Part shown: one piece after another, positions 62,039 through 64,000 of the stretch
Layout: each line of letters starts with the position of its first letter
Numbering within the stretch: position 1 is the first letter of the stretch
Source: Cloacibacillus evryensis DSM 19522
Lineage (GTDB): Bacteria; Synergistota; Synergistia; Synergistales; Synergistaceae
Assembly: GCF_000585335.1 (NCBI RefSeq)
Contig: NZ_KK073872.1
Location: 1,665,283 to 1,729,282, forward strand
Direction of reading: 5' to 3'
DNA: 64,000 nucleotides
Made by a program: the position numbers and the translations under genes
Notes under the pieces: model-generated
The model's database searches: none
What the model saw: only the letters and a program-made list of their open reading frames with translations
What the model was told of the DNA's origin: nothing

Positions 62039-63067
62039 ATGATAAAACCAAACGAAGAGGCCAACAGCCGCGCGCAGGTGTTTGAGACGCTGATGGAGAA
62101 CCCGGGCGCGATAGTATCCAGCTCGCTGTTGACGCAGAGGCTCTCCTCCTCACGTCAGGCTGTATTCAAGGCCGTCTGCTCCCTCAAGGACGAGGGCGTC
62201 CCCATTGAATCGATACCACAAAAGGGCTACCGTCTGGAAAGCATCGACGAACTTCAGAAGCTGAGCCCTACGATGATTGAGTTTTTCCTCCGAGATAATC
62301 CTCTTTTCAACAGGTGTATCTATATGCGAGAAACGGACTCCACCCAAAAGGTGATAAAGAAGCTCGCGATGCAGGAGGCCGAAGCCGGTATCGTGGCGCT
62401 GACTGAACGCCAGAGCGAAGGCCGGGGCCGGCGCGGAAGAAGCTGGCAGAGCCCCGACGAGAAAAATCTGATGTTCTCCATGCTCCTGCGGCCGACGCTG
62501 AAACCGGGCGAGGTACAACTGCTTAATTTAGCCGCCGGTCTTGCCGTCAAAGAGACGCTCGGCGAGCTCTGCGGCATCTCCTCGGAGCTGAAATGGCCCA
62601 ACGACATCCTCTGCCGCGGCAAAAAGCTTTGCGGCATTTTAAGCGAGGCCGCGGGCGAGCCGGACCGGATATATTACGCCGTCACCGGCATCGGCATCAA
62701 CGTCAACATGGGGCCTCCTGATATTCCCGAAGAGATAGCCGGCGTCGCCACTTCCGTCCTTATCGAAGGCGGCCGGCGGTTCGCAAGGTGGAAATTGCTG
62801 GTGGATTTTCTGGCCCGCTTCGCGGCGCTGATGGAACTGCTCTCCTCCCGCGGAGGCGCGGTGAAGCTGCTCTCGCTTTACAGGCGCGGCTGTGATACGA
62901 TAGGAAGAGAGATCCGTGTCGTGCAGGACGAGGAAATCTTCAACGGCAGGGCGACCGGCATCACGCCGGAGGGAGCTCTCGTCGTGCATACAAGTGACGG
63001 AGAAAAAATATTTGCCGCGGCGGATGTACATCATCTGCGCATGGCGGAGGGAGTGAACGGCGGATGA
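62039..63067 (+). CDS. birA: Biotin protein ligase / biotin operon repressor BirA
   Basis: Activates biotin as biotinyl-AMP and attaches it to carboxyl carrier proteins. An N-terminal winged HTH (about 10-60, SSSRQAVFKAV) indicates a bifunctional repressor, followed by the ligase motif GRGRRGRSW, KWPNDI and the GIGINVN segment. I chose the ATG at 62039 (AGGGAAG upstream) over a TTG at 62009. It overlaps the selD start by 4 bp (ATGA). Confidence 0.93.
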   Translation: MIKPNEEANSRAQVFETLMENPGAIVSSSLLTQRLSSSRQAVFKAVCSLKDEGVPIESIPQKGYRLESIDELQKLSPTMIEFFLRDNPLFNRCIYMRETDSTQKVIKKLAMQEAEAGIVALTERQSEGRGRRGRSWQSPDEKNLMFSMLLRPTLKPGEVQLLNLAAGLAVKETLGELCGISSELKWPNDILCRGKKLCGILSEAAGEPDRIYYAVTGIGINVNMGPPDIPEEIAGVATSVLIEGGRRFARWKLLVDFLARFAALMELLSSRGGAVKLLSLYRRGCDTIGREIRVVQDEEIFNGRATGITPEGALVVHTSDGEKIFAAADVHHLRMAEGVNGG

Positions 63068-64000
63068 GGCTTACGGAACGCGCCCGCACAAGCGGCTGAG
63101 CAGCAAAGATAGCTCCGGCGGAGCTTGACAGGATATTAAAAGACCTTCCGGTCTTCCGTTCCGATGATCTGCTCGCCTCATGGAATCACGGAGAGGATGC
63201 GGCGCTCTGGAAGATAACGGACGAGCGGATCGGGATATTGACGATCGACTTCATTACGCCTGTGGTAGACGATCCTAAAAAATTCGGCGAAATCGCGGCG
63301 GCGAATTCGCTCAGCGACGTATACGCGATGGGCGGCAGGCCGATAATAGCGCTCAACGTGGTCTGTTTCCCTACCTCCTGCGAGCCGATCTCCGTGCTTC
63401 AGGAGATCCTTGAGGGCGGCGCCCGGAAGGTAATAGAGGCGCGGACCATGCTGGCCGGAGGCCACAGCGTGCAGGACGAGGAGCCGAAGTACGGGCTCGT
63501 CGTCTTTGGCGAGGTAGAAAGCGACGAAATGTGGACCGTCGGCAGCGCGAAGGAGGGCGATTCGCTCATCCTCACAAAACCGATCGGCACGGGAATCGCC
63601 GTGACGGCGATCAAGGCGGGGCTGTTTTCGCCCGAAAATATCGAGGCGGCGGAATTGAATATGGCCAAGCTCAACGCGGTGCCGCCGCTGCTGCCCAAAA
63701 AGCTGCGCAGGGCAGTGACGTCCTGTACGGACCTGACGGGTTTCGGGCTGGCGAGTCACGCGCTGGACCTCGCCTCCGAGGGGACGTCGCTTACGATAGA
63801 CTGCGCCAAGATCCCGCTGCTCCCCGGGATATCCGAAATGGCGGAGATGGGACTGATACCGGCGGGAGCCTATGAAAACAGGAAGTATGCCGGCGCGCGC
63901 GTGATAAATAATTCCCCGCTGGGGCGCTTCGCCGAGGACATAGCCTTTGATCCGCAGACCTCAGGCGGTCTGCTGATTACGGCAGACAGGCGCAGCGCCG
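63064..64000 (+). CDS. selD: Selenide, water dikinase, selenocysteine-containing (C-terminus beyond window)
   Basis: Makes selenophosphate from selenide and ATP, the donor for selenocysteine and 2-selenouridine. The ATG at 63064 overlaps the birA stop. Codon 12 is TGA, in the position of the catalytic cysteine (TSG-U-AAKIAP), and the frame then continues with family motifs DFITPVVDDP, AAANSLSDVYAMGG and LAGGHSVQD to the window edge. A stem-loop right after the TGA fits a SECIS. Reading TGA as a stop would leave an 11-residue peptide, so recoding to Sec is almost certain. Confidence 0.95.
63097..63125 (+). promoter_or_regulatory. Bacterial SECIS element in selD
   Basis: Eleven bases after the in-frame TGA (63097-63099) lies AGCTCC-GGC-GGAGCT (63111-63125), a perfect 6-bp stem with G residues in the loop. 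Position and size fit bacterial SECIS elements recognised by SelB. Confidence 0.75.

Follow-up and report, generated by a model that had tools for sequence, protein, structure and literature searches.

A predicted selenocysteine-containing SelD in Cloacibacillus evryensis and two registers of its SECIS hairpin across Synergistota

The selD locus

The window analysed here, a stretch of 64,000 nucleotides (C1:1665283-1729282) from the 3.49 Mb single-contig genome of Cloacibacillus evryensis DSM 19522, ends within a gene for selenide, water dikinase (selenophosphate synthetase, selD; 63064..64000, forward strand). The window holds 312 codons of selD, and the stop codon lies 95 bases beyond the window end, giving a whole protein of 343 amino acids (L023:1347-2378). 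Ahead of selD on the same strand lies a gene for a birA-type biotin protein ligase (62039..63067; domains BPL_LplA_LipB, BPL_C and HTH_11), whose stop codon overlaps the selD ATG (63064) as ATGA, and translation of the two genes may be coupled there. A birA-type homologue is present in the available flank of 35 of 76 selD loci, a count that includes the window's own locus and duplicates.

The selD frame contains a TGA at codon 12 (63097..63099, forward strand), a putative selenocysteine (Sec) of the active site, and is open up to the window end when this TGA is read as Sec. The predicted N-terminal peptide is MRLTERARTSG-U-AAKIAPAELDRIL. The protein has AIRS and AIRS_C domains and matches the curated SelD model TIGR00476 at 323.7 bits (cut-off 125) over residues 2-310, that is, across the TGA, so that SelD homology continues past this codon as an earlier note on this DNA had claimed. 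The best match among solved structures is 2YYE (E = 2.9e-59), and E. coli SelD (3U0O; E = 2.8e-53) is homologous over residues 1-306. In these alignments residue 12 corresponds to Cys17 of the E. coli protein and to the Cys of the SGCAAK motif found in 2YYE and 2ZOD, and the E. coli counterpart of Lys15 (63106..63108, forward strand) is Lys20. We take Cys17 and Lys20 to be the catalytic residues of the E. coli enzyme, and the alignment with Cys17 bears out the note's placing of the TGA at the catalytic Cys/Sec position. The two crystal structures are presumably those of Aquifex aeolicus SelD with its natural Sec replaced by Cys. U12 and K15 thus form the N-terminal U/C-x-x-K motif of SelD, and UxxK is described as the Sec motif of SelD in passages of PMC9312934. 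Under translation table 11 the mechanical open reading frame (ORF) in the selD frame opens only at TTG 63238, and a standard gene caller would therefore truncate selD, just as the note had foreseen.

Selenocysteine machinery and other selenoproteins

If codon 12 is decoded as Sec, the genome should hold selA, selB and selC, as the earlier note had predicted, and all three are indeed present: selA (566.9 bits, cut-off 267.9) adjoins selB (386.1 bits, cut-off 242.25), and selC encodes a tRNA-Sec with anticodon tca (UCA; 76.2 bits, gathering threshold 47). Further selenoprotein genes, which it had considered possible and for which it had named glycine reductase as an example, are also found. GrdA contains a single internal TGA, in CFVUTAAG, and seven of eight GRDB domain matches have an in-frame Sec motif (GrdB-type genes and GrdA at L054-L062, e.g. 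C1:2397230-2400069 and 2648279-2652460); the eighth (C1:1306996-1307499) is partial and on inspection has no Sec motif of its own. The formate dehydrogenase alpha gene fdhA (C1:3221482-3223476, L197) likewise has one internal TGA, in NNVDHCAHLUHSATVAG, which by its motif we take to be the Sec site of this enzyme, and FdhA is thus a probable further selenoprotein. One genome therefore combines selA, selB, selC and selD with other selenoprotein genes, the combination that defines the Sec-decoding trait. Six of the seven GrdB-type genes have a hairpin with a GGN triloop at nt 22; the GrdB-type gene L060 lacks a triloop hairpin, and its motif, TUGTSSRGG, is unusual.

The same gene content bears on the possibility that a change of the code or a suppressor causes UGA at codon 12 to be read as Trp, Cys or another residue other than Sec. 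Although readthrough of this sort has been proposed for insect SPS1 in part of PMC4561486, TGA also serves as the ordinary stop of 9 of the 37 ORFs of at least 600 bases in the window (largely non-overlapping), and the genome has the full Sec machinery together with further Sec-family genes that contain an internal TGA. We therefore consider a residue other than Sec highly unlikely at codon 12.

A SelD protein search found no second SelD in this genome. Another AIRS-family match was rejected as a backup (E = 9.8e-5, 25% identity over residues 3-190), because at 73.8 bits it falls below the SelD cut-off of 125 and its best model, HypE, scores 83.9 bits against a cut-off of 251.6, which marks it as a related protein of another kind.

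Codon 12 across Synergistota

We collected 127 Synergistota selD loci from a homologue search (30), a phylum search (6), further stretches (87) and a second homologue search (4). Twelve loci of that second search are from Synergistota, of which eight are repeats and the other four are identical over 60 bases to later loci. The codon equivalent to codon 12 is TGA in 121 of the 127 loci and TGC in six, and the 118 distinct 60-mers around the site comprise 112 with TGA and six with TGC. Within an overlapping wider set of 71 loci, drawn from both homologue searches, the site could be aligned in 70 (68 TGA and 2 TGC; 8 of the 70 are repeats). By genome, the phylum search gave a SelD match at E ≤ 1e-40 in 123 of 185 genomes, 115 with Sec, six with Cys and two with fragments lacking the site; no genome matched at this threshold has both a Sec-SelD and a Cys-SelD.

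These comparisons also bear on the possibility that the TGA is a true stop, ending an 11-residue leader peptide, and that SelD starts internally, for example at TTG 63238, where the table-11 ORF does open. Such a start would delete the catalytic residue and its Lys, however, and homology to relatives and to solved SelDs is unbroken from residue 1-2 on, with the residues around codon 12 conserved throughout the phylum, so an internal start appears extremely unlikely. The chance that codon 12 arose through faulty sequencing or assembly, or through a nonsense point mutation of TGC or TGT, is practically negligible. TGA and TGC do differ by a single base, and six of the 127 loci encode Cys, but TGA stands at the equivalent codon in 121 of 127 loci from 115 genomes, which rules out sequencing error, and the hairpin described below accompanies the TGA forms and is absent from the six Cys forms. 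The comparison with other Synergistota that the earlier note had proposed thus favours Sec, and the case that it had named as damaging, relatives with a sense codon together with evidence of an assembly error, did not arise: the six TGC relatives are only 40-44% identical and we saw no sign of error.

Across the phylum, selB was found in 108 of the 115 Sec-SelD genomes, in one of the six Cys-SelD genomes and in both fragment genomes, and the seven Sec-SelD genomes without selB at threshold are all 55-86% complete. In a further 17 genomes selB is present but no SelD match reaches E ≤ 1e-40; eight are more than 90% complete (G005, G011, G041, G050, G075, G146, G177 and G179) and nine less so, a pattern that might reflect either assembly gaps or a diverged SelD; 45 genomes have neither. 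In the one Cys-SelD genome with selB, the Cys-type SelD gene adjoins it (G169:C297:4753-7875), and no selB was found in the other five.

The SECIS hairpin

Downstream of the TGA, folding and comparative pairing identify a SECIS hairpin, AGCUCC-GGC-GGAGCU (63111..63125, forward strand). Its stem (63111-63116 with 63120-63125) has 6 bp, four of them G-C, and starts 11 bases past the TGA, its GGC loop lies 17 nt from the UGA, and its energy is −7.9 kcal/mol. These values agree with all four bSECIS criteria as printed in section 5 of PMC13188914 (a loop of 3-9 nt with G in its first two positions, an upper stem of 4-16 bp, a UGA-loop distance of 16-37 nt and a minimum free energy ≤ −7.5 kcal/mol). 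The 6-bp, GC-rich stem-loop eleven bases past the TGA that the earlier note had pointed out is therefore present, but on its own it does not rise above chance (z = −0.23; 67 of 200 shuffles fold equally well or better), and we dropped lone-sequence folding as proof of the hairpin. An Rfam search of 6 kb around selD at a permissive threshold gave two sub-gathering matches, both outside the SECIS.

Conservation provides stronger evidence. An energy ≤ −5 is reached at 100 of the 112 distinct Sec sites, where synonymous redrawing of the codons would lead one to expect 3.4. Among 32 longer loci it is reached at the site in 31 versus 18 of 8576 same-phase positions downstream in the same genes. The sequences behind both comparisons are related, so that the counts are not independent trials. 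These results indicate that base pairing is kept beyond what the codons require. Under strict pairing, and counting the UGA as nucleotides 1-3, the loop occupies nt 21-23 (the proximal register, as in the window) in 91 of the 112 Sec sites, nt 24-26 (the distal register) in 15 and neither position in six; with mismatches allowed, 92 sites are proximal, 17 distal and three neither. Three divergent Sec sites (L185, L189 and L195) have a hairpin in neither register; of these, L185 comes from genome G023, where it is a second Sec-SelD. None of the six Cys sites has the hairpin, whether pairing is strict or mismatches are allowed, but these sites are a weak control because they belong to distant SelDs (40-44% identity).

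Over all rows of the alignment, 91.9% of cells in the proximal stem are paired, a level reached by none of 500 shuffles. Both sides change at only one proximal pair, columns 17/27 (G-C 65, G-U 18, C-G 9, other 19), and measures that count both-sides pairs and pair types are no higher than in the shuffles, 486 of 500 of which attain the same values. Distal pairing covers 97.5% of cells in the 17 distal rows, a percentage that is partly circular because the rows were chosen by pairing, versus 68.6% for proximal pairing, the latter without any both-sides change. Two of the distal pairs change on both sides in these rows, as happens in 15 of 500 shuffles, whereas none of the 500 attains the four cells with such changes. 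Counted over all 112 rows the distal structure gives no signal relative to the shuffles, because those rows mix the registers; the signal is present on the 17 distal rows.

Two registers of the selD hairpin

Across Synergistota the selD SECIS thus occurs in two registers that are exactly one codon apart, hairpin pairing placing the shift at loci L033-L042, L045, L069, L086, L107, L174, L181 and L186. Two residues vary with the pairing (window numbering): position 17 is Gly, Ala or Ser and position 20 is Asp or Glu. The C-G form of columns 17/27 corresponds to the window's clade, with GCU (Ala17) and GAG (Glu20), whereas most other selD sites combine GGU (Gly) with an Asp codon, GAC or GAU. Where a relative has Glu at position 20 and Gly or Ser at position 17, the 17/27 pair is impossible, and pairing is found one codon further on instead.

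To order these states we used a tree of 46 SelD proteins (40 from Synergistota and a Bacillota outgroup of six) from which residues up to 26 were excluded. The nine Ala-Glu rows form one clade (100/99) within a 20-row clade (100/99) whose other members are Gly-Glu or Ser-Glu, and the tree requires five state changes in all. Given this nesting, the ancestors of the window's lineage were most likely distal, and a change to Ala17 would have brought the hairpin back to the proximal register.

GrdB-type hairpins do not follow this pattern. A GGN triloop starts at nt 22 in 34 of 37 GrdB-type loci (30 plus the seven of the window's own genome), among them all 14 that come from genomes whose SelD hairpin is distal, and the register shift therefore looks particular to selD. 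Taken together, we think it likely that selD has two registers tracked by residues 17 and 20, with a return from distal to proximal in the window's lineage while the GrdB hairpins of the genomes covered stayed in position, that the RNA signal sets some of the residues adjacent to the Sec, and that SelB tolerates a shift of 3 nt.

Predicted function and relation to known systems

We conclude with near certainty that the window gene encodes a selenocysteine-containing SelD with a SECIS hairpin. A ribosome translating selD would meet the UGA at codon 12, where SelB carrying Sec-tRNA(Sec) is predicted to bind the GGC-loop hairpin 17 nt downstream, so that Sec would be inserted in place of a release-factor stop. 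Sec12 and Lys15 would then act as the catalytic pair in the conversion of selenide, with ATP, to selenophosphate, and SelA would use this product to make Sec-tRNA(Sec). Failing Sec, translation of selD would end after 11 residues. Because Sec is needed at codon 12 and selenophosphate is needed for Sec, SelD would be required for its own synthesis. If the cell has only this SelD and no Cys form to fall back on, one might conjecture that Sec decoding, once lost, could not easily be resumed. Reading codon 12 as Sec corrects the annotation of a gene that callers would truncate, and it speaks for a selenium pathway that depends on itself throughout an anaerobic phylum. E. coli SelD, in contrast, has Cys where the window SelD has Sec and is therefore independent of Sec decoding.

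Sec-containing SelD, its SECIS and the selenoprotein-rich Synergistetes are already described in passages of PMC4561486, PMC9312934 and PMC5029168. According to the published passages, 19% of SelD genes in reference prokaryotes contain Sec, always at the same position, the bacterial SECIS of Sec-SelD was recovered by RNAz, and the Synergistetes are a selenoprotein-rich phylum in which Sec use is possible in 13 of 14 organisms (PMC5029168). The window gene resembles the bacterial Sec-SelD/SPS of PMC4561486 and PMC9312934 in the enzyme, the Sec position, the UxxK motif and a SECIS directly downstream within the coding region, and differs from them in nothing of kind; the one-codon shift of the hairpin goes unmentioned in the main-text passages of these two papers. 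Searches of open-access papers likewise turned up no register shift of the selD SECIS. The Sec-containing kind of selD is thus well known, and the register shift is the fresher part and worth following. The sites in the two registers are naturally occurring variants of the SECIS of a single gene and would be useful for judging how strictly SelB depends on the UGA-loop distance.

The main text of PMC10838667, on Cloacibacillus porcorum MFA1, does not contain the word selD; it reports eight grdB genes as predicted selenoproteins, the Sec insertion genes with tRNA-Sec, and an absolute selenium requirement, and its eight grdB compare with the eight GRDB matches, seven with a Sec motif, in the window's genome. 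Four unannotated records of a phage collection also match SelD, at 35-44% identity.
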